The notes beneath the pieces are model-generated. The model was given only the letters and a program-made list of their open reading frames with translations, ran no database searches and had not been told where the DNA came from. The position numbers and the translations under genes are program-made. A DNA stretch of 64,000 nt. Origin: Novosphingobium sp. SG751A (GTDB lineage: Bacteria > Pseudomonadota > Alphaproteobacteria > Sphingomonadales > Sphingomonadaceae). The stretch spans positions 248,001-312,000 of the forward strand of contig NZ_JABGCB010000001.1 in the NCBI RefSeq assembly GCF_013149295.1, read 5' to 3'. Every line of letters starts with the position of its first letter. The stretch's first letter is position 1. Positions 3,669-26,049 of the stretch are shown piece by piece.

Positions 3669-3678
3669 CGCGATTCAA
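3669..3678 (+). repeat. Copy 1 of the CGCGATTCAA motif
   Basis: This exact 10-mer lies between the HNH cargo gene and the next phage gene, 58 bases before its start codon. The same 10-mer occurs at the right edge of the other three cargo islands. It may be a late-promoter element or a mark of insertion; the sequence alone does not decide. Confidence 0.6.
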
Positions 3679-3726
3679 GCCCCACCCCATAAACGATAGC
3701 CAGCCTCCTAACCACAGGAGGCTCCT

Positions 3727-3909
3727 ATCTGTTCCACCCCTGATATTTCGACGCCAGCGGAGCGGCAGGCCACAAAGGTTCCCGATGGCGGGGCGACCAA
3801 CATTGGCGTTGATACCGCCAAGATGCGGCGCGCGGCGCTTGCGGGCCTGATGACCAGCCCGGCCGGGACGCTGAGCGCGCCCACCGTGGCCAAGCCGACC
3901 CTTGGCTGA
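3727..3909 (+). CDS. Small phage protein with apparent AUC start
   Basis: A 60-codon frame ending in the TGATG overlap with the portal gene. It has no ATG, GTG or TTG after the upstream in-frame stop until codon 32. However, a perfect AGGAGG (3716-3721) sits 5 bases before ATC TGT TCC, so the likely start is a non-standard AUC at 3727. The product then begins MCSTPDISTPAERQATKV and ends APTVAKPTLG, a pattern like short podovirus proteins beginning MC and ending in a Thr-Leu-Gly motif. The function is unknown. An ATG-to-ATC mutation or a sequencing error is the alternative; starting at the internal ATG near 3820 would leave only about 30 residues. Confidence 0.55.
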   Translation: MCSTPDISTPAERQATKVPDGGATNIGVDTAKMRRAALAGLMTSPAGTLSAPTVAKPTLG

Positions 3910-5582
3910 TGGATCAGGCCAAAGCCCAGACCCTGCGCCAGAGCCTGCAAACGCAGCTTGAGGGCATGAAATCCATTCGGACCGATTATGAGGGCGAATG
4001 GAACGATATTGCGCGCTTTGCCCAGCCTGCGCGCTCCCGCTTCCTGACCAATGCGCGGGACCGTGGCGGGCGGCGGCGCATCCGCAACAACCGCCTGCTT
4101 GACCCCAAGGGCATCGAGGCGTTCCGCACGCTGACCAACGGCATGACCTCCGGCCTGTCGAGCATTTCGCGGCCTTGGTTCCTGTTGACCATTGGCGACC
4201 CGGAATTGGCCCAGCATCCCGAAGTCAAGGCGTGGCTGGCTGAGGTCGAGAAGCGCCTCTACGACTTCCTCGCCTTCACGAACTTCTATGGCGCGCTCAA
4301 GGCGGGCTATGCCGAGTTGGGCCTGTTCGGGACTGAGGCCTGCGTGATGGTCGAGGATCGCCAATTCGGCGCGGTCTGCCATGCCATGACGGCGGGTGAA
4401 TACTGGATCGCCATCAGCGCCTCGCTCAAGCCTGACACGCTGTTCCGCTATTGCCCGATGGACGTTCGCCAGGCGGTGCAGACCTTCGGCGCCCGCGTGG
4501 CGCCATGGGTGCGCCAAGCCTACAACGCCTCGAACTATACCCAGCTTGTCGAATATTATCAGGCGATCCAGCCCAACCCGGACTATAACCCGGAGAAGCT
4601 GGGCTCCAAGCCCTATCGCTCGGTCTATTGGGATCAGGGCGACACCCGCGCCGATGGGCTGACGCGGGTTTCTGGCTATGACGAGCAGCCCTTTTGGGCG
4701 CCGCGCTGGGATGTGGTGGGCGGCGATACCTATGGCGTCTCGCCGGGCATGGACGCCCTGCCCGCGCTGCGCGAATTGCAGATGCAGACCAAGCGCCGGA
4801 ACGAAGCCATCGACGGCATGGTCAAGCCGGAGAAGATCGCGCCGCCCTCGGTGCGCCTGACCGGAGAGCCGGGGCGCACGGTACGCGGCACCGGTATTAC
4901 TGCCGATCAGATCATCATCCCCTACCAGATACCCCATCAGGCGGTGCTGGCCATCGGCGGCGAGATCGACAAGCTCTATGTGCAGATCGACGCGCTTTCC
5001 TATGCCGACCTGTTCAACGCCATCACCAACATGCAGGGCATCCAGCCGCGCAACATGGAGGAGATCGCCTCGCGCAATGAGGAAAAGCTGACCCAGCTTG
5101 GCCCGGTGATCGAGCGCGTTTCGGATGAGAAGCTGCAACCGGCCATCGACCGCGCCTTTGGCATCATGGATCGCGGCGGGATGCTGCCGCCTGTGCCGTC
5201 TGTTCTGGCCCAAATGGCGGGGATGCCGATCAAGGTCGAGTTTATCTCGATCCTCCACCAGATGCAGCGCATGATCGGCATTGGCCAGATGGAGCGCGTG
5301 GTGGGCTTCATCGGCAATCTGGCAGGGGCCGACCCGACCGCGCTCGACAAGCTCGATACGGACGCCACGATTGACGAATATGCCTATCGCGTGGGCGCGC
5401 CGGTCAAGATGCTGCGTTCGGACGAGGATGCGCAGAAGATCCGCCAGCAGCGCGCCCAGCAGCAGCAAGCCCAGATGGCGGCCATGGCGCCAGCGGCGCA
5501 GCAGGGCGCGCAGGCCGCGCGTCTGCTCTCCGAAACCGATGCCGGGGGCCAGTCGATGCTTGATCGGCTTATCCAGCCATGA
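3909..5582 (+). CDS. Portal (head-tail connector) protein
   Basis: A 557-residue protein of the podovirus head-to-tail connecting (T7-type portal) family. Recognisable segments are the N-terminal DYEGEWNDIARFAQPARSRF, the TNGMTSGLSSISRPWF stretch near residue 80, YGVSPGMDALPALRELQMQ in the middle, and the C-terminal MQGIQPRNMEEIASRNEEK. Twelve copies normally form the ring at the capsid vertex through which DNA is packaged and ejected. The C-terminus is rich in Gln and Ala. The gene is coupled to the AUC-start gene by TGATG and to the next gene by ATGA. It looks complete. Confidence 0.9.
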   Translation: MDQAKAQTLRQSLQTQLEGMKSIRTDYEGEWNDIARFAQPARSRFLTNARDRGGRRRIRNNRLLDPKGIEAFRTLTNGMTSGLSSISRPWFLLTIGDPELAQHPEVKAWLAEVEKRLYDFLAFTNFYGALKAGYAELGLFGTEACVMVEDRQFGAVCHAMTAGEYWIAISASLKPDTLFRYCPMDVRQAVQTFGARVAPWVRQAYNASNYTQLVEYYQAIQPNPDYNPEKLGSKPYRSVYWDQGDTRADGLTRVSGYDEQPFWAPRWDVVGGDTYGVSPGMDALPALRELQMQTKRRNEAIDGMVKPEKIAPPSVRLTGEPGRTVRGTGITADQIIIPYQIPHQAVLAIGGEIDKLYVQIDALSYADLFNAITNMQGIQPRNMEEIASRNEEKLTQLGPVIERVSDEKLQPAIDRAFGIMDRGGMLPPVPSVLAQMAGMPIKVEFISILHQMQRMIGIGQMERVVGFIGNLAGADPTALDKLDTDATIDEYAYRVGAPVKMLRSDEDAQKIRQQRAQQQQAQMAAMAPAAQQGAQAARLLSETDAGGQSMLDRLIQP

Positions 5583-5935
5583 GCGGCTTTGACGGCGATG
5601 ATGCCGAATATCTCCTGAATCGCCCGGAGTTTCTGCGCTTCCTGTTCGCCGCGATTCAAGGCGCGGGCATCCTCGGCCAATACGCTCCTGCCAATGGGCA
5701 AATGGGGCGCGATCTCGGCCATTTCGAGGGGCGCCGAAGCCTGGGGTTTGAATTGCTCATGCTTGCCGATGCTGGACAGCCTGAGCCGCTGCGTTCGCCC
5801 GAAGCGCTGGCAACGCTCGATCTGATCCTGCGCGAAGCCCTGAACCCCAAGCCCAAACCCAAGGACAAGCAACGTGACCACCGAAAGCCCGACCCCAGCC
5901 TCGACCGATACGCCGCCCTCGGCGGGGACGACTGA
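5579..5935 (+). CDS. Bbp19-like phage structural-module protein
   Basis: A 118-residue protein overlapping the portal stop by four bases. The segment FLRFLFAAIQGAGILGQY followed by FEGRRSLGFELL matches the pattern I know from the Bbp19 family of Bordetella phage BPP-1-type podoviruses, where the gene lies between portal and capsid genes. The molecular role is not established; position suggests a head-assembly accessory. The C-terminus (KPKPKDKQ) is basic, and the last 62 bases overlap the next gene in another frame. The 10-mer CGCGATTCAA also occurs inside this gene at 5650-5659, apparently by coding coincidence. Confidence 0.7.
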   Translation: MSGFDGDDAEYLLNRPEFLRFLFAAIQGAGILGQYAPANGQMGRDLGHFEGRRSLGFELLMLADAGQPEPLRSPEALATLDLILREALNPKPKPKDKQRDHRKPDPSLDRYAALGGDD

Positions 5936-6614: not shown

Positions 6615-6628
6615 AAGGAGTGTGATCC

Positions 6629-7645: not shown

Positions 7646-7657
7646 GGAGCAAAGGCC

Positions 7658-8101: not shown

Positions 8102-8107
8102 GGAAGC

Positions 8108-8332
8108 ATGACGATGGCAACCTATCGCGCCAATGGCAGTCCGATCTATCTGTGCGACGAAGGCCGCATGGTGGCCGATGGTGATCTGTTCACCACCAAG
8201 GCCATCCCCGGCAAGTTCTGGGAACCGCAGGACGATGAGGCGCAGGCCGCCTGCAAAGCCCGGTTCCCCGAAAATTACACCGCCGACGAGGCTCCGGCTG
8301 ACGAGGCAAAAACCGGCCGCAAGACTTCCTGA
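8108..8332 (+). CDS. Small hypothetical phage protein after capsid genes
   Basis: A 74-residue frame six bases after the cement gene, with AAGGA before its ATG (an alternative ATG is two codons later). The sequence contains AIPGKFWEPQDDEAQAA and ends in an acidic/basic tail (DEAPADEAKTGRKTS). I do not recognise a family, but the location, spacing and GC content support it as a real late gene, perhaps a minor head protein. A clear intrinsic terminator follows ten bases later, so it closes the head operon. Confidence 0.6.
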   Translation: MTMATYRANGSPIYLCDEGRMVADGDLFTTKAIPGKFWEPQDDEAQAACKARFPENYTADEAPADEAKTGRKTS

Positions 8333-8341
8333 ACTTGGGGA

Positions 8342-8370
8342 GGGGCTGGGAGCAATCCCGGCCCCGTTTT
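8342..8370 (+). terminator. Intrinsic terminator closing the head-gene block
   Basis: GGGGCTGGGA pairs with TCCCGGCCCC across a four-base GCAA loop (ten pairs, one G-T), followed directly by GTTTT. It lies ten bases after the last head gene and before the second cargo gene, so tail genes further down probably need their own promoter or read-through. Confidence 0.75.
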
Positions 8371-8389
8371 CTATGGTGCGTTGCGCGCC

Positions 8390-8417
8390 TTGAAAATACT
8401 TTTCCCAAATGTATTCT
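8390..8417 (+). promoter_or_regulatory. Sigma-70-like promoter of the DUF7662 cargo gene
   Basis: TTGAAA (8390-8395) and TATTCT (8412-8417) are separated by 16 bases and lie about 30 bases before the cargo start codon, in a locally AT-rich stretch. Terminator, own promoter and single gene is the classic layout of a phage moron expressed from the dormant prophage. Confidence 0.5.
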
Positions 8418-8448
8418 CAAAGAAAGTTGCGCACCAAAGGCTACAGCA

Positions 8449-8694
8449 ATGCCGAAATATGATCCGTTGCAGGAATTTCTTGAAAATTGCGGTTCGGATC
8501 GAATTTCATTGAGCTTCGATCAAATAGGAAGAATGGTCGGCGGCCTGCCGCCCACTGCATACAAAAACGATGAATGGTGGGCCAACGAGGATGTGCGCAC
8601 CACTCGACATTCGCAGTGCAAATCCTGGCAAGGCGCAGGCTTCCGAGCTTCGGCACACCGCAATTCTAGGACAGTTGAATTCGTTCGGATATAA
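8449..8694 (+). CDS. DUF7662-like cargo protein
   Basis: An 81-residue protein starting MPKYDPLQEFLENC. The pattern KYDPL near the N-terminus, LSFDQIGRMVG in the middle, LPPTAYKNDEWWANE, then QCKSWQGAGFRASA near the end matches the DUF7662 family as I know it, a small domain of unknown function often found alone or fused to nucleases. The ATG at 8449 is preferred over the longer frame because a promoter sits just upstream and homology begins there. It lies between a terminator and the tail genes, with its own promoter, so it is cargo and not a structural gene. Confidence 0.6.
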   Translation: MPKYDPLQEFLENCGSDRISLSFDQIGRMVGGLPPTAYKNDEWWANEDVRTTRHSQCKSWQGAGFRASAHRNSRTVEFVRI

Positions 8695-8771
8695 CATTCT
8701 GCAATATGGCATTGAGTTTGCCCATTTACCTGCCTTCCATCGTTCTCTCGATTTTTCCGACTTAATGAGCC

Positions 8772-8781
8772 CGCGATTCAA
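8772..8781 (+). repeat. Copy 2 of the CGCGATTCAA motif
   Basis: Exact 10-mer between the DUF7662 cargo gene and tail tubular protein A, 71 bases before the tail gene start. Together with the terminator at 8342-8370 upstream, its place fits a promoter element for the tail block. Confidence 0.6.
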
Positions 8782-8797: not shown

Positions 8798-8831
8798 CCT
8801 AGCAGGGGAACAACCCCCACCTCTGCTTAGG
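8798..8831 (+). promoter_or_regulatory. Hairpin that could mask the tail-gene ribosome site
   Basis: CCTAGCAG (8798-8805) can pair with CTGCTTAGG (8823-8831) with one bulged base, enclosing a GGGG/CCCC core. The 3' arm includes the first part of the Shine-Dalgarno AGGAG (8829-8833) of the next gene, which also uses a weak TTG start. This could lower or regulate translation. Confidence 0.35.
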
Positions 8832-8842: not shown

Positions 8843-9478
8843 TTGGCCTCTCTCATCACCCTCTGCAATGAGGCGCTGTCCACCATCGCGGCCGGGCAGA
8901 TCTCCATGATCGACGAGCCATCCATCGAGGCCCGCGAATGCAAGCGCTGGGCGCCGACCGTGTTGGCGGAAATGGCCGATTGGACATCGTGGTCCAGCGC
9001 CATCAAGCGGGCGCCGCTGGCCCGCACGCTCAATGATCGCGGCGCGGAATGGCTTTGCGCCTATGCAGCCCCTGCCGATATGGCCGATCCTGTTGCCCTG
9101 CGAGAGCCTGAGGCGGATGCAGAATGGTTGCCGCCCTATGGCCCCGGCACCTTTCCCGCGCAGGACGCCATGGCCATTCCCTTCATTTATGAGGGCGGCA
9201 AGATCTATGCGAACATCGTCGGCGCGATCCTCGTTTACACCTCAAGCACTATGGACCCCGGCCTTATCCGCCCGCTGGTGCGCCGCGCCTTTGTGCTGGA
9301 ACTGGCCGCGCGCCTTGCGCTGCCCATCAAGAAGGACGCGAAGCTGGCGCAGGCCATCAGCCAGCAAGCCGAGGTCGCGCGCAATCGCGCCATTGCCGAC
9401 GAGGAAAACAAGAACCCACGCCGCGATCCTGAATATGTCTCGCAAGCCGAATGGGCGCGCATGGGGGTCGGCCTGTGA
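8843..9478 (+). CDS. Tail tubular protein A (T7 gp11-like)
   Basis: A 211-residue homologue of the podovirus adaptor protein that sits between portal and nozzle. The N-terminal MASLITLCNEALSTIAAG and DEPSIEARECKRWAP, the central PYGPGTF and YEGGKIYAN segments and the LVRRAFVLELAARLALPI helix are characteristic. It starts with TTG at 8843 after AGGAG, nine bases away. Its stop overlaps the GTG of the next gene. It is the first tail gene, after cargo island 2, and appears intact. Confidence 0.82.
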   Translation: MASLITLCNEALSTIAAGQISMIDEPSIEARECKRWAPTVLAEMADWTSWSSAIKRAPLARTLNDRGAEWLCAYAAPADMADPVALREPEADAEWLPPYGPGTFPAQDAMAIPFIYEGGKIYANIVGAILVYTSSTMDPGLIRPLVRRAFVLELAARLALPIKKDAKLAQAISQQAEVARNRAIADEENKNPRRDPEYVSQAEWARMGVGL

Positions 9479-11575: not shown

Positions 11576-12029
11576 GGCCGTCACCATCGTTCCGGCCCGC
11601 CATGCCCATATCGGGGCCATTGTGCGGCACATGCGCGCCATCGATGCGCTGGAATGCCGCGCCTTTGGCCGGGAGCCCAAGACCGCGCTGCGCGTGGGAC
11701 TGGCCAACAGTGCAAAGGCGTGGACGGCGCTGGTCGATGGGCGCCCTGCGGCGATGTTCGGCGTGGTGGTCAATTCGGTGCTGACCGGCGATGCGGTGCC
11801 GTGGTTCCTCGGCACGGATGAGGTCTATCGCCATGGCCGGGAATTGCTGGCGTGGGGGCCGGGCCTGATCGAGCGCCTGTGCGATTCAACGCTGACCCTG
11901 CGCAATCTAGTGTCGGTCCACAACACCAAGGCCATCCGCTTGCTGGAGCGGTGGGGCTTTTCAGTGCGAAGGGAGGTGATCTTGTCCGCCGGGGTTGAGT
12001 TCTATCCGTTTGAAAAGGTGCCAGGCTGA
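11568..12029 (+). CDS. T7 gp13-like internal virion protein (GNAT fold)
   Basis: A 153-residue protein overlapping the tail gene by eight bases. It has a GNAT acetyltransferase-like layout: an N-terminal strand-helix (ITIVPARHAH-type opening), a central WTALVDGRPAAMFGVV sheet region, and C-terminal NTKAIRLLERWGFSVRRE, which resembles the A-motif end of GNAT enzymes. T7 gp13-type proteins with this fold sit in the internal virion gene block. Whether it acetylates anything is unknown. The stop is coupled to the next gene through TGATG. Confidence 0.72.
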   Translation: MARAVTIVPARHAHIGAIVRHMRAIDALECRAFGREPKTALRVGLANSAKAWTALVDGRPAAMFGVVVNSVLTGDAVPWFLGTDEVYRHGRELLAWGPGLIERLCDSTLTLRNLVSVHNTKAIRLLERWGFSVRREVILSAGVEFYPFEKVPG

Positions 12030-14729: not shown

Positions 14730-14778
14730 GCAAGGGGCCGCCGCTCTTGCCATAAACCGCTTGTGTATCGTATCGCGT

Positions 14779-14794
14779 GGTGATACGTATCACC
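14779..14794. promoter_or_regulatory. Palindromic operator candidate upstream of higB
   Basis: GGTGATACGTATCACC is a perfect 16-base palindrome ending two bases before the higB ATG. HigA antitoxins are helix-turn-helix autorepressors that bind palindromes at their own promoter, so this is the natural operator. A related GTATCGTATC stretch lies just upstream (14764-14774). Confidence 0.65.
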
Positions 14795-14796
14795 TT

Positions 14797-15078
14797 ATGA
14801 TACAAAGCGTCATCGGGGATCTGATACCGCAAGTGCTTGCCGGTAAACCCGGCAAAGGCTTCCCGACAGACGTGTTCCGCGTTGCGGTTCGCAAGGTGGC
14901 CATGCTGGAGGCTGCCGTGAAATTGAGCGATCTGCGTTCGCCGCCAGGCAATCGGCTTGAGGCGCTGTCTGGTGATCGAGACGGGCAGCATTCAATCCGG
15001 ATCAACGACCAGTGGCGGATCTGCTTTGTTTGGACCGATAATGGTCCTGAAAATGTTGAAATGGTTGACTATCACTAA
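14797..15078 (+). CDS. higB: HigB-like toxin (RelE/HigB mRNA interferase)
   Basis: A 93-residue protein with the hallmark C-terminal block of HigB host-killing toxins: LRSPPGNRLEALSGDRDGQH followed by SIRINDQWRICFVW and ending VEMVDYH. The family cleaves mRNA on the ribosome. The ATG at 14797 is chosen because the operator palindrome ends two bases before it; a longer frame from 14761 would run through the operator. The toxin precedes the antitoxin by 12 bases, the usual HigBA order. The pair forms the first part of cargo island 3, where it may stabilise the prophage or act against infection. Confidence 0.85.
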   Translation: MIQSVIGDLIPQVLAGKPGKGFPTDVFRVAVRKVAMLEAAVKLSDLRSPPGNRLEALSGDRDGQHSIRINDQWRICFVWTDNGPENVEMVDYH

Positions 15079-15090
15079 GAGGACACCGCT

Positions 15091-15378
15091 ATGACCATGC
15101 TGCAAGTGCCGGTCCATCCCGGTGAAATTCTGCGCCATGAATTTCTGGAGGAATTGGGGATCAGCGCCGGGGCGCTGGCGAAGCGCCTGAATGTCCCTCG
15201 CACGAGGATCGAGCGTCTTTGCGCGGGCGAAACCTCAATGACCGTTGATACAGCCAAGCGCTTGGCCGCTGTATTCAGCATGACGCCGGAGTTCTGGCTC
15301 AATCTCCAGACCCACTATGACCTGCTGATGACGAAGGTTGAGGGCATTGAGGCAATTGAGCCGCTGATCGCTGCCTAA
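15091..15378 (+). CDS. higA: HigA-like antitoxin
   Basis: A 95-residue helix-turn-helix protein of the HigA family: VHPGEILRHEFLEELGISAG, the recognition region LAKRLNVPRTRIERLCAGE and the closing FWLNLQTHYDLL are typical. It neutralises HigB by binding it and represses the operon. A GAGGA ribosome site precedes its ATG. It is intact and complete, so with higB it forms a plausible working toxin-antitoxin module. Confidence 0.88.
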   Translation: MTMLQVPVHPGEILRHEFLEELGISAGALAKRLNVPRTRIERLCAGETSMTVDTAKRLAAVFSMTPEFWLNLQTHYDLLMTKVEGIEAIEPLIAA

Positions 15379-15841: not shown

Positions 15842-15883
15842 GTCCGCAACAGCACCGTGTCCGGAAAGGCGTTTTTCGTCGAA
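15842..15883. repeat. 42-bp imperfect repeat, copy A (upstream of immunity-like gene)
   Basis: Begins GTCCGCAACAGCACCGTGTC and aligns over 42 bases with 16475-16516 with roughly three quarters identity and no gaps. On the minus strand it lies 45 bases upstream of the immunity-like gene start, so it may carry that gene's promoter. Confidence 0.6.
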
Positions 15884-15909: not shown

Positions 15910-16458
15910 TCAATGCCCCAGCAGGTCCATACGCACCTTGGTCAATATTAGGCCGAGCAGGTTTTCACCTCGCCAAACAGTTGGCGAGTGCCCGCCTGGG
16001 TAATCGATCTCTCGCCCGTTGCCCCAAATCCAGTCACGGGGATTGGCCTCGACAAGCAAGGCGTTTCCTGTGGTGCGAAGTTGCCTTTTGGCGCCTTCAT
16101 TCTGGGAAAATTTGGCAAGATTACCGCGATAGACAATGTTGATTTTCCATTGATCCCACAGGTCTTGGTCAAAGCCTCGAACTTGCTGCCCCAGTCGCTT
16201 TTGCGCAGCCGGATCAACTTCGGCGGCAATTTGCTCTGCTACGTCAAGGTCGTGAAACAACAGCGCCTTCGCGTGCATCATCCATTGTTCGGCCGTTACA
16301 AACCGCATCCCGTCCAGTTGAAAGGGTGTGTGATGCCACTGACTGAAAACCCCTTTGATGAAAGGCACAAATTCGGAATAGTCCAAGGGATCAGGCAAAC
16401 TGGTTTTACTCAGTGACGGCATCAACTGTGGTTCTTCAGCGTTCATGCCTAAATCCAT
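15910..16458 (-). CDS. NADAR family protein (YbiA/DUF1768-like)
   Basis: A protein of about 182 residues with the NADAR/YbiA signature: FSQWHHTPFQLDGMRFVTAE then QWMMHAKALLFHD, then IVYRGNLAKFSQNEGAKRQL, and WIWGNGREIDYPGG near the end. NADAR enzymes act on N-glycosidic bonds of riboflavin intermediates or ADP-ribosyl groups, and are found in NAD/ADP-ribose-linked conflict systems. Start ATG 16458 is used; 16446 is an alternative, and the much longer frame on this strand is spurious since it runs through the large phage gene. It is read against the phage operon and is bracketed by the same two repeats as the immunity-like gene. Confidence 0.75.
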   Translation of the reverse strand: MDLGMNAEEPQLMPSLSKTSLPDPLDYSEFVPFIKGVFSQWHHTPFQLDGMRFVTAEQWMMHAKALLFHDLDVAEQIAAEVDPAAQKRLGQQVRGFDQDLWDQWKINIVYRGNLAKFSQNEGAKRQLRTTGNALLVEANPRDWIWGNGREIDYPGGHSPTVWRGENLLGLILTKVRMDLLGH

Positions 16459-16474: not shown

Positions 16475-16516
16475 GTCCGCAAAAGCACCGTGTCCGAAAT
16501 GGCATTTTTTGCTGAA
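16475..16516. repeat. 42-bp imperfect repeat, copy B (upstream of NADAR gene)
   Basis: Begins GTCCGCAAAAGCACCGTGTC, matching copy A at 15842-15883. On the minus strand it lies 17 bases before the NADAR start, so each of the two minus-strand cargo genes has this block upstream and the GGGGGAGCGGACG block downstream. Confidence 0.6.
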
Positions 16517-16529
16517 TAGTGCCGAAGGA

Positions 16530-16539
16530 CGCGATTCAA
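16530..16539 (+). repeat. Copy 3 of the CGCGATTCAA motif
   Basis: Exact 10-mer between cargo island 3 and the giant ejection protein, 40 bases before the ATG chosen for that gene. Confidence 0.6.
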
Positions 16540-16569
16540 TACCGCGTCATCGCGGCGTACCGCTGCCCC

Positions 16570-19500
16570 ATGCCCGATCAGATCATCCCGTTCCAGCCGT
16601 GGAAACAACCCCAGCCCGCCGTCCAGCAGCAGGATAAAGACCCGCTGATTGCCGCGATGGAGCGAGAGCGGGACGAGCGCATCCGATCCAACCTGATGAT
16701 GGCGCAAAGCCCGGAACAGGTAGCGCAGGCCAGCACGCTGGCGCGGCAAATGGGCGTTTCCCCCGCCCAGATCGACGGCCTTTTGCCCGAAGCCGCTCAG
16801 GCGCAAAAGACCAAGGCGCTGGTGCAGGTCGCGCGGGATCACCCCGACATTGGCGCACATCTTGCCAACAACCCGCGAACGGCGGCGGTGGCGCAGGGCG
16901 ATCATGCATCGCTGGGCGTGATGGGCGAGGCATGGCGTGTTCTCAAGGAAACCTATAATCCCGTACTGGCCTTTGGCGCCGGGCTCGATGCTTTCGACCG
17001 GGCAGACGTCGGGAGCCAAACGGCGGGCGTAGCTGCGCCGTTCATGGCGGGCACGGCGGCGCTGATGGGCGATGCAACGGCGCGGCAAGCCTTGCGCCGC
17101 GCTGCGCCCTATTCCGGCTCGGCACTGGCCGCAGGCGTTGCGGGGCTATATTCAGGCGCAGCCGGTTTTGGCCGAATGGCGGCTGATGGCGTTGGCTGGC
17201 AGAGCGCGAGCGATCTGCTCAACAGCCAGCGGCAGAATGCAGAGGCCTATCAGAAGCGCGCTATGCCCAAGACCGGGGATTGGGTGGCCGATCAGGTGTT
17301 GGGCGGCATCAGCAACTTCCCTTCAACGCTGCTGGCTCTGGGGACGAGCATGACGGGCCGGGCCCTTGGCCTTGGCATGAAGGGAGCGGCGGCGCTGGGC
17401 GCTGGCATCGGGGGCATTGTTCAGGGCGGTCAGACCTATAATCAGGCGACCGATGCGGGCCTGCCCTATCGCACGGCGGCAACCTATGCGCTGCTCGATA
17501 GCGCCTCCGAAGTCGCAGGCGAATACGTGGGCGACCTTTCGTTCCTGCGGGCCATGGAAGGTGGTGGCTCGATCCTGACGCGGTTCCTGCGCAGCCAGAT
17601 TGGCGAGCAGGCGGGCGAACAGTTTTCGACCATCGCGCAGGACTTCACGCAATGGGCCTATATGCCCGAAAACCGCGACAAGCCCTTCTCCGCATTTCTG
17701 GAGAAACTGCCGGGCGACATGGCCGCCACGGCTGTTCAAACGCTTGTTGCCGGGGGCCTGTCCAACATCACGATTGGCGGGCTGGAAAAGGCAGTCGATG
17801 CCGGGATGCGCCGGATCGCCAAGACGGCGGCGCCCGATCTGCTGGCAGCGGATCAGGCGCTTTCCGCATCGGCCGCCATCGACGCCTTTGGCCGGGCGGC
17901 GGAACAATCCTCAATGCGCAAGCTCGACCCGCAGGCCTATCAGGACCTCATACGCTCCGTGGGCGAGAGCAGCGGCGTGTCGCATGTGTTCGTGCCGGGC
18001 GAGGCCGCGCAGGCCTACATGCAGTCGGAAAGCTACGACCAATACACCGACCCCCTGCGCCAGTTTGCCGCCGATGTGGCCGAGGCGGTGCAGACCGGGG
18101 GCGATCTGGTGCTGCCGGTGGAGTTTGCTTTTGGCGCCCTGCCTGGCACTTCGGCTTGGGGGGCGCTCAAGGATGACATGCGCCTTGCGCCGGGCGGCAT
18201 GTCAGCGCGCGAGGCCGCCGAATTTCGGAACACGATCAGCCAGAAGCTGGATGATGTTCTGGCCCGCGTCGATGAGGGCAACGCCCAGCAGGACGGCGCG
18301 CGTCAGCAGATTGTCGAGCGTGTCCGCAAGATGCTGATGGATGCGGGCTATACCCCGGATCTGGCAAATGTTCATGCCGAACTCTTTGCCACGCGCGAGG
18401 CCGTTCGGGCGGCGCGCTTGGGGCAGGAACTGACCGGGCTGGAGTTTGACACGCGGATCGAGCAGGTTCTTCCCCCTGCCCTTGCCGCTGCGCGCAAGGC
18501 CGATGCGACCGACATGGTTATCAACGCCATGCGCAAGGGCAAGCCCGCCACGGTGCAGCAGGGCGACAGCCTGCTGGAATGGATCGCCAAGCGCGGCGGC
18601 CTGAATGACAGCGGCGGCGATCTGAAATCCATGGGGCTCGATAGCTGGCATTTGCGGACGCCTGCGCCGGGCAAGAAGGACAAGAAGGGCCGCCCTGCCC
18701 GCCCCACCCCCATTCGCGGGCGCAAGCAGATCTTGCGCGATTTCGATCCTCGGCAGGCCAGCATGGGCGGGCCGACCGGCGCGGGCGACTATGGGCTGGA
18801 CACCACCCTGCGCTCAGCCATTGAGGCGGGCTATTTCCCCGAATTGCAGGGTATGGCCGATCAGGCCGGTGTCGATCAGTTGGACAGCCAGATGCTCCTC
18901 GATGCGATTGGCGAGGAACTTGCCGGCAATGCGCGCTATACCGAGGAGGCCAAGACCGACCCCATGCGCGCGGCAGCCGAGGAATTGCAGCAGCTTCTGG
19001 CCGAGCGCGGGCTTGACCCCGAAGGCATGAGCGATGCGGAATTGCGCGCGGCGATCAACCAGCTTTCGACTGAGGCGGTTGGCGCGGGTTATGACCAATC
19101 CACCAAACCCATCGCCTCAATAACCGGCGAGGAAATCGCCCCCAAGGCCACGCCGACGAAGGATCTTCGCGCCAAGGTACGCGATTGGTTCGCCGCCCAT
19201 CTGCGCGGCACATCGGTTCGCAGCGAGGCCCTTGGCAAGGATGTGACCTTTGCATCGCCCAAGAAGATGCTCAGCTTCACCGCTGATCGTGAAAAACTGT
19301 TGGCGGTGGCTGGCCTGCGCGATCTGATCGCCAAGGGAGAACTGCTTTCGTCGCGGCCATCTTATGACACGGCCGAGGGCAACGCCATCAAGGCCTATCA
19401 CCAGATCGGCGGCGCCCTGAACATCGCGGGAAAGGACCGGTATGTCCGCGTCACCATCCGCGAGGCGACGGACGGCACCTTCTTCTACGATCACGTAATT

Positions 19501-22500
19501 CCGGAGAACGCTACCCGAATCGACCCAGCCCCCGGCAACAAATCCGGACTTAAGGAAACGGGTAGCGCGCTGAAGCAATTACCAGAATCCTCACCCGTGT
19601 TCAATATGGAGATCGAAAGCGGGAAGGCAGCCAAGGACACCGGCCCGCGCGGGCGCATCATCTTCACCCCCGGCCAGCGCCCGGTCATCCAGCTTTTTCA
19701 GAGCCGCAATCTCTCCACCCTGCTGCATGAAATCAGCCACCAGTGGCTTGAGGAATTGCGGGCCGATGCCCTGCACGCCGATGCGCCCGATCAGTTGAAG
19801 GCGGATTGGCAGGCGGTGCAGGACTGGTTTGCCGCCAATGGCCACGCGATCAGCGATGATGGCGTGATCCCGGTTGATGCCCATGAACTGTTCGCGCGCG
19901 GTGGTGAGCGATACCTGATGGAGGGCAAGGCCCCCTCCTCTGCGCTGCAAGGCATGTTTGACCGTTTCCGATCCTGGCTGCTGGCGATTTACAAGACGGT
20001 GGCCGATCTGCGTTCGCCCATCACGCCGGAGATCCGCGAGGTGTTCGACCGCCTGCTGGCGACCGATGAGGAAATCGGCGCCGCGCGTGAAAGGCTGGCG
20101 CTGAACCCGCTGTTCAAGGATGCGGCGCAGGCGGGCATGGCCGGGGCCGAGTTTACCGCCTATTCCGCGCAGGTCCAGACCGCGCGCGACAAGGCCAGCG
20201 GCGATCTTCTGGCCAAGACCATGAAGGCGATCCGCCGCCGAGAGGAAGCCCGCTATGCAGCCGAGCGCCGCGAAGTTGTGGCCGAGGAAACTGACCGACT
20301 GATGCAGTCGCCCATCCTGCAATCGCTGGAACTGATGAAGGCCGACCCGATCAGCAAGGAATGGCTGCAAGGGGAATTTGGCCTTGATGCGGTCGATCTG
20401 ATGCCCAAGCGCGTGCCTCCGCTCTACAAGCCGGGCGGCGCCCATCCCGACATGATTGCCGAAATGGCGGGCTTTGACAGCGGCCGGGCCATGCTCGAAG
20501 CCCTGTTTGGCCTTGAAGCCGACCACCGCCAGGCGCGCGAGGGCGGCGACAAGCGGACCATGCGCCAGCGGATGATCGACGCGGCGGCCGATGAAGAAAT
20601 GGCGCGGCGCTGGGGTGAAGATCCGTTCAATGACGGCTCTATCGAGCGCGAGGCCATGGAGGCGATCAACAGCGACCGGCAGGGAGAAGTCATCGCTTCG
20701 GAGGTCCGTGTGCTGGCGCGCTCGACCGGCAACCGGCCAACGCCCTATCGATTGGCGCGCGATTGGGCGCGGCAGAAGGTGCGCGGCGGCACGGTGGCAC
20801 AGGAGGCCAGCCCGGCAGCGGTACAGCGCCACACGCGCGCGGTGCAGAAGGCCGGGCGCGCGGCGGAAGAAGCATTCCTGAGAGGCGACCGGGAAGCAGC
20901 CTTCCGCGCCAAGCAGCAGCAGATGATTGCCTCGGCGCTTCTGGCCGAGGCCAAGGAGGCCATGGACGAGGTGCAGGCGGCGCAGGCACGCATGGCCAAG
21001 GTGGCGACCGCCAAGACCTCCAAGAGCGTGGATCAGGACTATCTCGAACGCGCGCAAGACCTGCTTGAAGCGGTGGATCTGCGCCCGCGTTCGCAGCGCT
21101 CCATCGACCGGCAGGCGAAATGGGAGGCATGGGCGCAGGACCGGCGCGCCGAGGGGCATGATGTGGTTGTGCCGGACAGCTATGCCGCCACGCTGGAGGG
21201 GCAGCACTGGACGCGCCTTTCGGTTGAGGGGCTGCTGGGGCTGGATGAAACGGTCAAGCAGGTCATGCACCTTGGCCGCCTGAAACAGACCTTGCTCGAC
21301 AATCAGGAAGAGCGGGAATTTGATGCGGTGGTGGCCGAGGCCATCGCGGCGGCGGGCAGCATCGAGGGGCCCGCGCCAAAGGGACTGCAAGAGCAAGGCT
21401 GGTGGGATGCGCTCAAGGGCAAGGTGCTGAGCGCGGATGCATCGCTGCTCAAGATGGAAACCGTGTTTGATTGGCTCGATGGCGGCGATCCCAACGGCGT
21501 GTTCAACCGGATCGTTTTCCGCCCCATTTCGGCTGCGCAGGGCCGCGCGCAGGACATGCAGAAGGATTACATGGGGCGCATCCGCGATCTGTTCGCCGCA
21601 ATCCCGGCCGAGCAAGTCTCGCGCTGGGCCGACAAGGTGCAAACGCCCTTCTTCGACAAGTTCAGCGGCAAGCCCTATTCTCCCATGCGCCACAAGCTGA
21701 TCGCCATGGCGCTGAACATCGGCAACGAGGGCAACATGCAGCGCCTTGCCGATGGCTATGGCTGGAATGCCGGGGCCATTGAGGCCTTCCTGACCGACAC
21801 GCTGAGCGCCGAGGAATGGCAATTCGTGCAGGGCGTGTGGGACAGGATTGAATCGCTCTGGCCGGAAATGGCCGCGCTGGAGCGCCGCGTGAATGGGGTT
21901 GAGCCGGAAAAGGTGGAGCCGCGCGCCTTCACCACCCCGCATGGCGAAATGCGCGGGGGCTATTATCCGGCGATCTATGACAGCAGCCTGTCGAGCATGG
22001 CCGAGGATCGCAGCGCCTCGCCTGAAAGCGTCCTGCTTGAGCCGATGGCCACCAAGGCGACCACGCGCGCGGGCGCGACCAAAGCCCGCGCGCAGAAGGT
22101 GTCCGAGCCGATCCTGCTCGACCTGGGCGTGATCCAGCGGCACCTGGGCGAGGTGATCCACGATCTGACGCACCGCGAGGCGGTCATGCAGGCTTGGAAA
22201 TTCCTGTCTAACCGGCGCGTGTCATCCGCCATCGACGATGCGCTGGGCCAGCAGATCCGGCGCCAGCTTCGCCCATGGGTCAAGTTTGTCGCCAATAGCT
22301 GGGCGATGGAACGCGCGGGCAATGAGGGCATGGGGCGGTTCTTTGCGCTGGCCCGCACGAATGCCACGATTGTCGGCATGGGCCTGCGCATCACAACTAT
22401 GGTGACGCAGCTTGCGGGTTATTCCAACTCGATTGAGGTGGTGGGCGAGGCGGCCATGGCCAAGGCGATTGCCCAGACCTACAAGGCGCCTATCGAAACT

Positions 22501-23439
22501 GCCCGCTTCGTCTTTGAGCGTTCGGCCGAAATGCGTCACCGCATGGACACGCTGGACCGGGATCTGCGCAATGAACTGGCCAAGATCGAGGCAACCAACG
22601 CGCTGACTAAGAGCGCGCAGGCGTTGCAGGATGGCAAGCGGCTCTTCTTCCACGGCATCGGCATGATGGATCGCGCGGTGGCGGTTCCCACTTGGATCGC
22701 GGCCTATAACGAAGCGCTGGCGCAGGGCATGACCGAGGAGGATGCCGCCTATGCCGGGGATAAGGCGGTGCGCGTTTCGCAAGGTGCGGGGTCTCCCAAG
22801 GATCTTGCCGCCGTCCAGCGCGGGACCGGGAAGCATGGCGAAGCGCTCAAGCTGTTCACCACCTTCTACAGCTATTTCTCGGCCATGTATCAGCGCGAAA
22901 GGACGCTGGCCCGCGATGTGCGCGGCAAGGATGCGCGCCAACCTCGCGCAACGCCTAAGCTGGTTGCGCGGGCTTTCTGGCTATTGATCGTGCCGCCCCT
23001 GCTCACCGAGGTTTTGCGCATGGTGGCGGGCGGGAACGCCGGGCCGGATGATGACGAATGGTGGCTGCAATGGACGATGCGCAAGCTGCTGGCCAATGCC
23101 ATCGGCCCCATCCCCTTTGCGCGCGATGTGTTTGAGCCTGCATGGAACAAGGCGATCAAGGGCAAGGCGTATAGCTCAGGCATGACGCCTATCCAGCGCG
23201 CCGCCGAATCCTTTGAGCAATCGGCGGGCGACTTGGGCAATCTGGCGCGCGGCGAGCCCACCAAGCACGCGACCAAGGATCTGCTGGAAACGGCAGGCTA
23301 TGTGACCGGGCTTGTGCCGGGACAGGTGGCCAGTTCGATCCAGTTCCTTGTCGATGTGGCGCGGGGGGATCAGCACCCGCAGTCGGCGTATGAGGTTTGG
23401 CGGGGGCTCTCAACAGGGAGGGCGGAGAGGGAACGCTAG
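16570..23439 (+). CDS. Giant internal virion/polyvalent ejection protein with HEISH motif
   Basis: A 2,289-residue protein in the position of T7 gp16, the largest ejection protein. Residues 1-430 are Ala/Gly-rich and helical. Around 890-985 is a segment (YVRVTIREATDGTFFYDHVI) like the large polyvalent protein-associated domains (LPD3-like). A zinc-peptidase-type HEISH motif is at 1053-1057. Long charged coiled regions follow, and a hydrophobic segment (FWLLIVPPLLTEVL) near 2135 could insert in the membrane. Such polyvalent proteins enter the cell with the DNA and may block restriction or process host proteins. ATG 16570 is preferred over GTG 16519, which would make the 10-mer motif coding. 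Confidence 0.75.
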   Translation: MPDQIIPFQPWKQPQPAVQQQDKDPLIAAMERERDERIRSNLMMAQSPEQVAQASTLARQMGVSPAQIDGLLPEAAQAQKTKALVQVARDHPDIGAHLANNPRTAAVAQGDHASLGVMGEAWRVLKETYNPVLAFGAGLDAFDRADVGSQTAGVAAPFMAGTAALMGDATARQALRRAAPYSGSALAAGVAGLYSGAAGFGRMAADGVGWQSASDLLNSQRQNAEAYQKRAMPKTGDWVADQVLGGISNFPSTLLALGTSMTGRALGLGMKGAAALGAGIGGIVQGGQTYNQATDAGLPYRTAATYALLDSASEVAGEYVGDLSFLRAMEGGGSILTRFLRSQIGEQAGEQFSTIAQDFTQWAYMPENRDKPFSAFLEKLPGDMAATAVQTLVAGGLSNITIGGLEKAVDAGMRRIAKTAAPDLLAADQALSASAAIDAFGRAAEQSSMRKLDPQAYQDLIRSVGESSGVSHVFVPGEAAQAYMQSESYDQYTDPLRQFAADVAEAVQTGGDLVLPVEFAFGALPGTSAWGALKDDMRLAPGGMSAREAAEFRNTISQKLDDVLARVDEGNAQQDGARQQIVERVRKMLMDAGYTPDLANVHAELFATREAVRAARLGQELTGLEFDTRIEQVLPPALAAARKADATDMVINAMRKGKPATVQQGDSLLEWIAKRGGLNDSGGDLKSMGLDSWHLRTPAPGKKDKKGRPARPTPIRGRKQILRDFDPRQASMGGPTGAGDYGLDTTLRSAIEAGYFPELQGMADQAGVDQLDSQMLLDAIGEELAGNARYTEEAKTDPMRAAAEELQQLLAERGLDPEGMSDAELRAAINQLSTEAVGAGYDQSTKPIASITGEEIAPKATPTKDLRAKVRDWFAAHLRGTSVRSEALGKDVTFASPKKMLSFTADREKLLAVAGLRDLIAKGELLSSRPSYDTAEGNAIKAYHQIGGALNIAGKDRYVRVTIREATDGTFFYDHVIPENATRIDPAPGNKSGLKETGSALKQLPESSPVFNMEIESGKAAKDTGPRGRIIFTPGQRPVIQLFQSRNLSTLLHEISHQWLEELRADALHADAPDQLKADWQAVQDWFAANGHAISDDGVIPVDAHELFARGGERYLMEGKAPSSALQGMFDRFRSWLLAIYKTVADLRSPITPEIREVFDRLLATDEEIGAARERLALNPLFKDAAQAGMAGAEFTAYSAQVQTARDKASGDLLAKTMKAIRRREEARYAAERREVVAEETDRLMQSPILQSLELMKADPISKEWLQGEFGLDAVDLMPKRVPPLYKPGGAHPDMIAEMAGFDSGRAMLEALFGLEADHRQAREGGDKRTMRQRMIDAAADEEMARRWGEDPFNDGSIEREAMEAINSDRQGEVIASEVRVLARSTGNRPTPYRLARDWARQKVRGGTVAQEASPAAVQRHTRAVQKAGRAAEEAFLRGDREAAFRAKQQQMIASALLAEAKEAMDEVQAAQARMAKVATAKTSKSVDQDYLERAQDLLEAVDLRPRSQRSIDRQAKWEAWAQDRRAEGHDVVVPDSYAATLEGQHWTRLSVEGLLGLDETVKQVMHLGRLKQTLLDNQEEREFDAVVAEAIAAAGSIEGPAPKGLQEQGWWDALKGKVLSADASLLKMETVFDWLDGGDPNGVFNRIVFRPISAAQGRAQDMQKDYMGRIRDLFAAIPAEQVSRWADKVQTPFFDKFSGKPYSPMRHKLIAMALNIGNEGNMQRLADGYGWNAGAIEAFLTDTLSAEEWQFVQGVWDRIESLWPEMAALERRVNGVEPEKVEPRAFTTPHGEMRGGYYPAIYDSSLSSMAEDRSASPESVLLEPMATKATTRAGATKARAQKVSEPILLDLGVIQRHLGEVIHDLTHREAVMQAWKFLSNRRVSSAIDDALGQQIRRQLRPWVKFVANSWAMERAGNEGMGRFFALARTNATIVGMGLRITTMVTQLAGYSNSIEVVGEAAMAKAIAQTYKAPIETARFVFERSAEMRHRMDTLDRDLRNELAKIEATNALTKSAQALQDGKRLFFHGIGMMDRAVAVPTWIAAYNEALAQGMTEEDAAYAGDKAVRVSQGAGSPKDLAAVQRGTGKHGEALKLFTTFYSYFSAMYQRERTLARDVRGKDARQPRATPKLVARAFWLLIVPPLLTEVLRMVAGGNAGPDDDEWWLQWTMRKLLANAIGPIPFARDVFEPAWNKAIKGKAYSSGMTPIQRAAESFEQSAGDLGNLARGEPTKHATKDLLETAGYVTGLVPGQVASSIQFLVDVARGDQHPQSAYEVWRGLSTGRAERER

Positions 23440-23615
23440 GGGGCGGAATAGCAAGTTTCGACCAATTTGCGACATTCGCTTCCAAAGACGCGAACGTCGT
23501 AGTCTGACGACACCGGTCATTCGTTGATCCGCTTAAGCCCTTTTTGCACGTCCGGCCTGTTGGAGGTTAGATACTTTCCAGTTTACGGTTTAGACGCGGG
23601 AAAATAGCCCTTCGT

Positions 23616-25538
23616 TCAGACAGGCAGAGGGAGCAGAGTATCTACGATCACCGTCAGTTCCATTCGCGCGATTTCTGGCAATTGCTCCCAGAAATCATCG
23701 AGGTCCAGAAGCTTGATGACGTTCTCCACGTCCTTGGATTTGAATGTCTTGGGCAGATAATCCTCGAGCGCACCGAGGCCTAAAACGAACACGTTTTCCG
23801 TGCGCTTTCGTGCGAGAAAAGTCTCAAGACAAGCCTTTTGCTCATCCGTGAGAGCTGGATTAAGCTTGACCCGCTTTGACTTGATGTAGGTCCAGAGACC
23901 GCTGGCGCTCTCCCAAGAGCCTGTGGCGAGAGCTGTCTCGATCGCATCGACAAGTGTCTTGCCGTCGGTACTTTTAGGATTGTCAATTACATCCTTTTTG
24001 ATCTCAGTGGTATTGACGACAAACAATCCCTTGACCGATTGGTCACCGATTTGCTCGATGTAATCGAGATCCGCGATCATTGCTGAGGGCACTTTGCAGG
24101 TTTCGAGCAATTGAGCATAGGCAGCAAAAAGGCCCTTTCCGCCTACGCTCACGATTTCCAGCGTTTCCGCGCCCTTGTCCCGATCGGGGCGTAGGTGAGC
24201 GATAACCTTCTCAAAAAAAATTCGATCGCTCAGACCTTCCACCAATAGTACGCGATCGGCGAAGAAAATACTCTCGTTGTTCTGGCTGTTGACGACATTG
24301 AACAAATGCCTGGCATTCGGAAGGCCCGCTGAGTTGAGTCTGATTACCCGGCTACGCTGTGCGTCGCTGTAAACCCTCGAAACATATTGGATCGACTTGG
24401 GTGATACGAATGTCGGGGAATGCGTCGCCAAAACAAATTGGTTGCCCGTGGATACCGACAGTCGCTCGAAGAGCCGATATAGGGAACGCTGCCAACGGGG
24501 ATGCAGGTGCAGCTCGGGCTCATCAACGACGATGACTGCATCTCTGACATTCAGTGCATAAACAGCAAACAGGTAGGTTAGCAGCTCTTTCTCACCGGAC
24601 GATGCTTCGCTGACGAGGAATTTTGAGCCCTGCTTTTCCAGCTCAATATCGTAATGATTGGCCAAGGCATTGATGGTTTTGAGCTTCCAATCATATCCCA
24701 AGCTTTTAAGGTCGGCCGTTAGCGCCTTGATGTTGGGATCGCTGTAGAATGCCATCTTAGCGCTTTGGTTATCTTCTTCCTGGAGAAGACGGAACTTTCC
24801 GGCAAGACGGCCCACCGCGAGCTGGATGATATTCGTGCCAGTGCGCGAGCTTGTTGCATCGGTTCCTTTCTTGAATTCGAGGTCATTGTAGCCTGCAAGC
24901 TGGATCGAAGACTGGAACTGGACACTCGCACGGTTGACGGGAAGATAGACCATCGGCATCTGAAGCGAGGCTAGTTTCAGATCCGACCGCGTCATATTGT
25001 CGATTTCGAAAAGCTGGAGATACTCTAAAAAGTGCTTCGAGTGCTGGTCTGCTGCAGGTTCCAAACTGCCATTGCGCCAGATGTAAGTGAAGCGTTCGCC
25101 AGCATTGATAGCTGCAATGTCCCATTGCCCAGAGATTTTCCAAGGGTCTTGGATCAGAGTCTTACCTATTTTCGTGACGATCTCGGTTGCCTGTTCCTTG
25201 ATTCGCTTCATGTTTTCCAGATCTGTGGCGGAAGCTTCCACTTCGATCTCCACATACTGCTGCTTATCGAGGCCGGATGTATGCTTGGGAAATGCGAGTT
25301 GATTCAAATTCTGATTATAATCTAAGTTGTAGCGTTCAATTCCATCGCCGTGATCAACCCGCATCAAGTATCTGGTCGCCAATAGGTAGCGCCGAAGCAT
25401 GATGACAACGGTATCCAGCAGGTTGGTTTTGCCACCACCATTTGGCCCGATGATGATCGTGATAGGCCCATCAAACAGCACTTCCTGGCGCTCAAGGAAG
25501 CTGCGCACATTTTCAATGGCAATCCTGCGGAGAAGCAT
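23616..25538 (-). CDS. OLD-family ATPase with TOPRIM nuclease domain
   Basis: A 640-residue protein antisense to the phage operon. The N-terminal SMC/ABC-type ATPase is complete: Walker A GPNGGGKT at 31-38, signature SSGEKE at 313-318, Walker B AVIVVDE at 334-340 with PELHLHP after it, and an H-loop ATHSP at 371-375. The C-terminal TOPRIM domain has E434 (LLVEGLSD), G466-G467 and the acidic pair D490/D492 (ADLD). This is the layout of overcoming-lysogenization-defect (OLD) nucleases, with no UvrD-like partner next door, so a class 1 stand-alone type. P2 Old excludes lambda, so superinfection exclusion is the likely role. All motifs are intact. Confidence 0.85.
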   Translation of the reverse strand: MLLRRIAIENVRSFLERQEVLFDGPITIIIGPNGGGKTNLLDTVVIMLRRYLLATRYLMRVDHGDGIERYNLDYNQNLNQLAFPKHTSGLDKQQYVEIEVEASATDLENMKRIKEQATEIVTKIGKTLIQDPWKISGQWDIAAINAGERFTYIWRNGSLEPAADQHSKHFLEYLQLFEIDNMTRSDLKLASLQMPMVYLPVNRASVQFQSSIQLAGYNDLEFKKGTDATSSRTGTNIIQLAVGRLAGKFRLLQEEDNQSAKMAFYSDPNIKALTADLKSLGYDWKLKTINALANHYDIELEKQGSKFLVSEASSGEKELLTYLFAVYALNVRDAVIVVDEPELHLHPRWQRSLYRLFERLSVSTGNQFVLATHSPTFVSPKSIQYVSRVYSDAQRSRVIRLNSAGLPNARHLFNVVNSQNNESIFFADRVLLVEGLSDRIFFEKVIAHLRPDRDKGAETLEIVSVGGKGLFAAYAQLLETCKVPSAMIADLDYIEQIGDQSVKGLFVVNTTEIKKDVIDNPKSTDGKTLVDAIETALATGSWESASGLWTYIKSKRVKLNPALTDEQKACLETFLARKRTENVFVLGLGALEDYLPKTFKSKDVENVIKLLDLDDFWEQLPEIARMELTVIVDTLLPLPV

Positions 25539-26049
25539 TTGTGTCCCTTCAATAGCTGCACCGAGACTATACAGTGGGTGCGCGAAGAAAAGGAATAATT
25601 GTGCGGGCGGGGGGACTTGCCCCCCACGGGCAAAGCCCCACGGATTTTTACGCCGGCTACGACTTTTGCCGCCGCCCTGATGGGGGTCTGTGGTCTGGAC
25701 TATCCAATTCTCACAGTCGGATCGCTAACGAGCTAATCGCTGAACGGCAGCTATTGGGAGAGCAAACTCGCGTCGGCAGCGTCGGCTTTGTCGGCGGGTT
25801 CCGCCGCACAGCCTCACGAGATCCGAACGGCTGCTTTCGGCGTAAGCAGACACTGCCAGTTGCCGCGCCAACCGGCACCAATGTCCCATAAATCACAGCA
25901 AAACGACCAGAGCAAATGACCGCCCTCCCCCATCAGGCCTAAAAGGCCACGATCATCACCCACCGAACCTGATCAAAGCCGCCTAACCCCCGCGCGATTC
26001 AAGCCCGCCCGCTCCCCCCGTAAGCCCACCGGGCAAGGAGCGCGCGAAC
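25539..26049. other. Non-coding stretch right of the OLD gene
   Basis: About 510 bases without a convincing gene. It holds the OLD gene's upstream region, a strong G/C hairpin (GGGGGG-acttg-CCCCCC near 25610-25626), two loosely related 17-base strings (GAACGGCAGCTATTGGG at 25742 and GAACGGCTGCTTTCGGC at 25825), and finally the CGCGATTCAA motif and ribosome site (AAGGAG) of the tail spike gene. The short frames across it have no recognisable protein pattern. Confidence 0.5.
25993..26002 (+). repeat. Copy 4 of the CGCGATTCAA motif
   Basis: Exact 10-mer between the OLD cargo gene and the tail spike, 57 bases before the tail spike ATG, almost the same spacing as copy 1 (58 bases). Confidence 0.6.

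Follow-up and report, generated by a model that had tools for sequence, protein, structure and literature searches.

Why should one ten-letter word, CGCGATTCAA, mark the right edge of each of four low-GC cargo islands in a prophage of Novosphingobium sp. SG751A? We address this question for a stretch of 64,000 nucleotides (assembly GCF_013149295.1, contig NZ_JABGCB010000001.1, positions 248,001 to 312,000), called the window below. A preliminary description of this DNA had left two readings side by side, namely a late-promoter element that restarts transcription after each insert and the scar of a site-specific cargo insertion process. Judging from sequence comparisons, the word is very probably (at a rough probability of 0.88) the upstream box of a phage late promoter, and the cargo was almost certainly inserted upstream of an element already in place.

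The repeated word and its TA partner

A scan of the window found exact copies of the word at 3669, 5650, 8772, 16530 and 25993, all on the plus strand, and none on the minus strand. The chance expectation is a mean of 0.35 copies per window, more than the 0.1 first estimated, and at least five copies were reached in none of 100 dinucleotide shuffles. The four copies at right edges were confirmed to precede phage genes by 40 to 71 bp: 58 bp to an ATC at 3727, 71 bp to a TTG at 8843, 40 bp to an ATG at 16570 and 57 bp to an ATG at 26050. The left edges of the four islands have no exact partner, as had been noticed before. The sites are as follows.

3669-3698, plus strand: predicted late promoter P1, with box CGCGATTCAA at 3669-3678, 18 bases (N18) and TA at 3697-3698; predicted transcription start (+1) at 3709; the downstream gene, before the portal gene, starts with ATC at 3727, and a like element precedes the portal gene in relatives
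3702-3723, plus strand: inverted repeat AGCCTCCT(aaccac)AGGAGGCT, with a Shine-Dalgarno sequence (SD) in the 3' arm; the 5' arm ends at the predicted +1
5650-5659, plus strand: fifth copy of CGCGATTCAA, inside the gene after the portal gene, as the rare codons GCG-ATT-CAA
8772-8801, plus strand: predicted late promoter P2, box 8772-8781, TA 8800-8801, predicted +1 at 8812; tail gene from TTG at 8843
11880-11909, plus strand: TGCGATTCAA, a copy with one mismatch, followed by TA at the fixed spacing and located within the internal-virion-protein gene (phrog_308)
16530-16559, plus strand: predicted late promoter P3, box 16530-16539, TA 16558-16559; the ATG at 16570 lies exactly at the predicted +1 (leaderless)
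16570-23439, plus strand: gene of a giant protein of 2289 aa, first gene of P3 (phrog_9880, LPD3/LPD22 domains; these scans used the longer open reading frame [ORF] 16519-23439)
25993-26022, plus strand: predicted late promoter P4, box 25993-26002, TA 26021-26022, predicted +1 at 26033; the downstream 987-aa gene begins with ATG at 26050

The copy at 11880, missed by the preliminary description, is a possible further site. It is matched by CACGATTCAA copies with TA in three relatives (G047, G046 and G052; G numbers denote genomes and L numbers loci). The remainder of the 5.73-Mb genome holds four further exact copies, none with TA at the fixed spacing.

Portal matches were obtained in 28 of the 195 genomes of the genus, and 17 prophage loci, the window included, have portals that are 56-100% identical (a 55-residue portal fragment in G011 was left out). 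Scanning related prophages and looking at relatives without cargo had been proposed as checks; in both, the motif was found to remain, the word or a lineage variant standing on the late-gene strand at the same junctions, although some prophages are without some sites. These junctions lie before the small gene and the portal gene, just after the portal gene, and before the tail gene (phrog_394), the giant gene (phrog_9880) and the fibre gene. The consensus is (G)CGAT(T/C)CAA, 18 mostly unconserved bases and TA, written (N)GCGATTCAA-N18-TA. Among 39 noncoding or internal-virion-protein sites, an A stands at the fixed position in 39, a T before it in 35 and a C two bases earlier in 29; these sites were placed by hand according to gene junction with the TA already in view, and the table covers neither the post-portal coding copies nor single coding hits nor hits outside the late block.

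Counts made without such selection point the same way. GCGATYCAA occurs 56 times on the plus and 8 times on the minus strand of the 17 prophage stretches (489,634 bp), with TA in 32/56 and 2/8 of these sites, respectively. For the shorter CGATYCAA, the A is in its fixed place at 85 of 96 sites on the plus strand and 7 of 28 on the minus strand, a count that includes some duplicate loci (L096 equals G043, L089 equals L088, L100 equals L099, and G046 is nearly G047). In a more distant set of 17 loci (portal identity, 38-62%), 16 of which lie outside the consensus set (L043 is inside), a box with at most one mismatch plus TA was found at eight sites in seven loci, eight on the plus strand and none on the minus strand. 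The L040/L091/L092 lineage has GTGATTCAA throughout, both boxes of L040 included. In the case of L149, there is another viral contig in the same IMG genome whose fibre gene is 88% identical (residues 169-987) and lacks the motif, which is likely due to fibre exchange between prophages. Two further candidates were not counted, each being a single site apparently shared by descent: GGCGATCCAA with TA before the portal gene of IMG/VR relatives (portal identity, 28-29%) and AACGATTCAA with TA in Acinetobacter prophages.

The copy at 5650 was correctly located in a coding region at the outset, but setting it aside was not justified, since the corresponding copy after the portal gene, which encodes Ala-Ile-Gln, is present in 17/17 prophages. 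Its codons are GCG in all 17 and CAA in 16, with CAC in G009a. In the 15 copies that we tabulated, chosen by their match to CGATYCAA (G046 and G009a were left out), GCG and CAA frame an Ile codon, ten times ATT and five times ATC, amid synonymous sites that vary. In these genomes, both CAA and ATT are 16% codons. To judge by this codon choice, the copy is not accidental and belongs to the set, and it is a candidate internal promoter or activator site. The boxes of one genome also seem to vary in concert. G066, G065, G163 and G165 have CGATCCAA at both their junction and coding sites and G168 has it at its single site, and the coding copy contains ATC in exactly those five genomes in which any other boxes are CGATCCAA. 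In G009a, the coding copy and the pre-portal box both end in CAC, which in the coding copy changes Gln to His, and in L090 both boxes are CTCGATTCAA. Since the boxes of a genome change together, one factor appears to read all its sites.

Predicted start sites and a candidate activator

The position of the TA relative to the downstream genes suggests where transcription would begin. At tail and giant junctions, the spacing TA-N10-ATG is exact in 8 of 12 cases (ATG 12 nt after the T of TA), with unrelated intervening letters; one box is counted here for G051, whose second lies farther away (13 with it). The same spacing recurs at the portal-side gene of L099 and at the L040 and L091 tail genes. 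With +1 set at the A of such a leaderless ATG, the TA falls at T-12/A-11 and the box at -39 to -31. The same predicted +1 gives the other, leadered sites leaders of 15-31 nt, mostly 15-24 nt, with an SD-like sequence. Most leadered sites have an inverted repeat with the SD in or near its 3' arm, and here the sequences differ (GCCTCCT/AGGAGGC, GCACCTT/AAGGTGC, CTCCTGG/CCAGGAG, CCTTGCC/GGCGAGG) while the place is the same: of the 24 leadered sites that have a stem, 17 show a best stem whose 5' arm terminates at index 37-41, index 38 being the predicted +1 (in one further leadered site no stem was found). Folding of read-through RNA gave an SD accessibility of at most 0.21, with the SD in the stem, at 20 of 25 leadered sites; higher values were seen in G066, G065, G163, the fibre gene of G051 and the tail gene of L088. 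In RNA beginning at +1, accessibility increased from 0.00 to 0.52 (G062), from 0.01 to 0.19 (P1) and from 0.20 to 0.74 (P4). On balance these arrangements speak slightly in favour of a leaderless or hairpin start gate at the late genes.

Which protein might read the box? All ORFs of 14 prophages were clustered, and the families present in at least 10 of them are, so far as they could be identified, virion or packaging proteins, antisense shadow ORFs, the small pre-portal gene and one protein of 114-163 aa. The last, a predicted winged-helix protein, has its gene directly ahead of the terminase genes in the 13 prophages whose region was read. In the window it is

1-305, plus strand: gene of the winged-helix protein (127 aa), just before terminase; the gene starts 79 bp upstream of the window

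At an E value below 1e-19 it was found in 16 genomes. Of these, 15 belong to the 16 genomes with this portal; the other is G035, with a rearranged prophage in which the winged-helix gene and a box with TA are both present. The one portal genome without a match, G168, is represented by an assembly that is 81% complete. The predicted model is a winged helix over residues 21-90, with mean pLDDT values of 88-94 in ten-residue blocks. A Foldseek search of this model against the PDB gave no match at an E value of 0.001 or better, the weak ones being MarR/LexA-like, so that no structural family can be named. Four members fell below the Pfam cut-offs, at 12.9 versus 23.7 bits for PF01726 (LexA DNA-binding) and at most 12.6 versus 24.6 bits for PF01047 (MarR), and the top match among viral proteins, with 50% identity and an E value of 1e-12, is a phage protein named "LexA-repressor DNA-binding-domain protein". 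In G009a, the lineage with CAC, the wing reads FHRAR, versus (F/W/Y)Q(R/K)(F/Y)R in the other genus members of the close group. None of the eight stretches with only a weak winged-helix homologue (G020, G080, G022, G143, G066:C1, G017, G150 and G029) has a box with TA, allowing one mismatch. From its position and conservation, we see about an even chance that this protein is the factor acting at the late promoters.

In G046, G047 and G052 (loci L184, L050 and L053), the winged-helix gene is preceded by minus-strand (N)GCGATTCAA copies, possibly an autoregulatory site. Divergent winged-helix homologues in L166, L168, L169 and L176 end in CxxCxxRxDIGCxH, missing from the close family, and the L168 contig carries a portal of the second group.

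Islands, order of arrival and rival readings

The islands have GC contents of 43.1, 47.9, 53.8 and 52.1% from 1 to 4, versus 62.8-64.6% in the phage blocks.

2350-3668: island 1, HNH_5 endonuclease gene (2664-3548, minus strand) and a 102-aa ORF
8342-8370, plus strand: intrinsic terminator at the end of the head transcription unit, folding at -24.8 kcal/mol with a T-run
8371-8771: island 2, about 400 bp of 47.9% GC between the terminator and P2
14730-16529: island 3, toxin and HigA antitoxin genes (14761-15378), a small ORF and a NADAR gene (15910-16416, minus strand)
23440-25992: island 4, OLD-family ATPase/TOPRIM nuclease gene (23616-25538, minus strand) and a small ORF

The terminator before island 2 thus folds as had been proposed. 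The cargo had been called non-structural throughout, which holds for islands 1, 3 and 4, while the single ORF scanned in island 2 had no family match. The NADAR gene is bracketed by imperfect direct repeats of about 40 bp (15842-15882 and 16475-16518), possibly marks of a separate insertion.

What do the same junctions look like without cargo? From the stop codon of the giant gene to the box there are 6, 2, 5 and 2 bp in G064, G062, G051 and G043, versus 2554 bp in the window, and from the TerL stop codon 15, 5, 18 and 70 bp in G066, G009a, G163 and G009b, versus 1320 bp. Seven cargo-free junctions of relatives in all have the element 2-18 bp past the upstream stop codon. From the stem of the head-unit terminator to the box core there are 11 nt in G053, versus 409 nt with intervening low-GC DNA in the window, and 18, 23 and 43 nt in G051, G009b and G052. 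Hence, the upstream gene lies anywhere from 2 to 2554 bp away, while the spacing on the downstream side hardly varies: 8 of the 12 tail and giant junctions have 40 bp and all five fibre junctions 57-61 bp, with exceptions of 71 bp (the tail gene of the window) and 55 bp (two giant genes). The upstream slots of relatives hold, for instance, a chemotaxis-receptor-like gene (G047) and a TetR-like regulator (G065); of ten such ORFs scanned, six had no match in either library. Since cargo-free junctions keep the element, the cargo almost certainly entered upstream of a pre-existing element, and the insertion scar of the preliminary description is ruled out. The link between element and cargo is secondary, insertions being found upstream of a putative promoter that predates them. 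Of the late-promoter reading, then, the promoter itself is supported by a second box, strand bias, downstream distance, leaderless geometry and conservation, but not its supposed purpose of restarting transcription after an insert.

A scar or target of a site-specific insertion process would account for a box at the right edge of all four islands, yet as a primary cause we rejected it on the cargo-free junctions of relatives, which carry the element at the same place. One conserved copy, furthermore, lies within a coding gene, the left edges have no exact partner, and the box extends into a promoter-like TA at fixed spacing; we give this reading next to no chance. The same junctions led us to reject a promoter or operator of the cargo itself. 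The reverse complement, TTGAATCGCG, might be an operator or -35 element of minus-strand cargo genes, and such genes in three islands do read away from the box, but the element exists without cargo and its distance to the phage genes is nearly fixed, which makes this idea similarly implausible.

Two other readings keep the element with the phage. An RNA-level signal in the late transcript, such as a nut-like antitermination or processing site, would fit the strand specificity and the position between genes equally well, and hairpins follow the box. We consider it improbable, as a fixed N18-TA with a mostly unconserved spacer fits a promoter and not an RNA site, ATG falls exactly at the TA-predicted +1 in 8/12 sites, and some boxes lie directly after terminators (no comparable terminator was found near most other sites). 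That the element serves a single-subunit RNA polymerase of the phage as promoter, its +1 being the invariant A, seems very improbable. Several near-identical directional promoters per genome are what T7-type phages have, and the 5' arms of the hairpins mostly begin 4-8 nt after the A, so that they would be transcribed; however, no polymerase gene was recognised among the families in at least 10 of the 14 prophages, no polymerase match was obtained among the window ORFs scanned (a subset of all ORFs), and TA-N10-ATG without an SD would stay unexplained.

Several observations weigh against the late-promoter reading that we prefer. At the fixed spacing, the coding copies carry CA instead of TA. 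A alone stands at the fixed position in 5 of 8 minus-strand GCGATYCAA sites and in three of the four chance copies of CGCGATTCAA in the host genome. The -10 region lacks a conserved T-7 (C stands there in 24/39), unlike that of sigma70. Ten of the 17 distant loci, several of them short, are without such a site. The element is absent from eight prophages with portals of about 25% identity (310,001 bp; GCGATYCAA twice on the plus and never on the minus strand), and no replacement was found there; a k-mer search of these for another direct word with TA gave nothing convincing, a weak result since the known word was recovered in only two of four control genomes (the window's own and G051; missed in G064 and G043). 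The giant gene of G053 lies 751 bp to the right of its box, and extra genes stand between box and portal in G062 and G051 and likewise on the map of G043. In front of the portal gene, G066, G065 and G163 show weak SD masking or none, accessibility does not rise in G066 (0.44, 0.37) or G065 (0.48, 0.46) and hardly does in L088, and several hairpin sites are alike by descent. The rise is by itself weak evidence because a shorter RNA always has fewer pairing partners; the stronger point is therefore the coincidence of arm end and predicted start. Finally, common descent confounds the way in which the motif and the winged-helix protein vary together.

The proposed mechanism and known systems

The element resides in what is a temperate podovirus of about 44 kb with portal, capsid and tail genes of the epsilon15/BPP-1 kind. 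The window contains matches to PF12236 (portal), PF20911 (capsid) and Bbp16/PF21190, by homology to the epsilon15/BPP-1-like portal, capsid and head protein, and its portal is 38.7% identical to that of epsilon15 (best phage-record match, 40.6%). A 91-bp exact direct repeat, with one copy at 32347-32437 overlapping tRNA-Pro and the other about 11.5-11.6 kb left of the window beside an integrase-like protein (judged by eye, no search), probably represents the attachment sites and ends of the prophage. Among named relatives, Novosphingobium sediminicola DSM 27057 is the nearest (portal 92%). The small conserved gene before the portal gene has an apparent AUC start after AGGAGG in six prophages (the window at 3727-3729, G054, G064, G009a, L043 and L088) and AUG in others; in the window, no in-frame ATG, GTG or TTG lies between the upstream stop and the AUC codon.

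In the explanation that we propose, (N)GCGATTCAA-N18-TA would head the late transcription units of this podovirus, its box at -39 to -31 being a phage-specific site that replaces the -35 region. Host RNA polymerase would be recruited there by the winged-helix protein encoded just before terminase. Local transcripts would start at the AUG itself (leaderless) or at about the point where the 5' arm of an SD-masking hairpin ends, and read-through RNA would therefore be translated poorly and locally started RNA well. Cargo would sit directly in front of such a promoter, past the point where the previous unit has its terminator or stop codon, since an insert at this place interrupts no operon and no promoter. 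Taken as a whole (late promoter, licensed starts, cargo upstream), this account is probable on the patterns described. More tentatively, and with somewhat more doubt than belief, we suggest that a start-site licence operates across this temperate phage family, in that a late unit would be translated mainly from RNA that was started at the unit's own late promoter. If true, the licence would insulate the late genes from read-through and therefore make the upstream slots safe landing sites for defence genes active in lysogeny. This offers a testable reason why defence cargo gathers at certain points of a packed late operon. For this prophage group, the analysis also provides predicted start sites, a candidate for the activator and a promoter signal that can be read.

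The islands resemble the morons, or defence cargo, of other prophages. They differ from the phage in base composition and are absent at those places from relatives, as befits low-GC accessory genes between conserved genes; here, in contrast, each slot is bounded immediately to the right by a predicted late promoter. The element itself recalls the MotA-type middle promoters of T4, in which an activator box of about 9 bp replaces the -35 element and is combined with a -10 part. The box here is of similar length and place but would lie at -39 to -31, with an 18-bp gap to the TA, and would serve late genes. RinA and ArpU are late transcriptional regulators of Gram-positive temperate phages.

The closest parallel to the start gate is provided by T4 genes e, soc, 49 and I-TevI, whose long transcripts mask the SD in a hairpin, according to two papers (PMC3014915, PMC2988022). 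As described there, a late promoter lies in the 5' strand of the stem, and its transcripts lack that strand and are translated (PMC3014915, PMC2988022). Here, the 5' arm ends near the predicted +1. T4 late promoters are TATAAATA read with gp55/gp33, whereas here a box, GCGATTCAA, is predicted at -35; the sites do not follow TATAAATA but have the consensus GCGATTCAA-N18-TA. Here, moreover, the phage is temperate, many late units would be so built, and other units would have leaderless starts. In phi13, Ltr is reported to be a regulator encoded upstream of a late promoter that serves packaging, capsid and lysis genes (PMC13123087). The predicted DNA-binding protein directly before the packaging genes holds an Ltr-like position, a candidate regulator gene upstream of late promoters. 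In phi13, four direct repeats upstream of one promoter are reported as the proposed sites, whereas here several predicted promoters share a box in the -35 region. Neither the element nor any promoter of this group of prophages was found described in the accessible portions of the literature, which was searched for the phage group and sphingomonad prophages, for late promoters and late regulators, for leaderless starts and for the word. The parts are of known kinds (an activator-box promoter, a T4-like gate and a moron), while their combination and the signal appear to be new.

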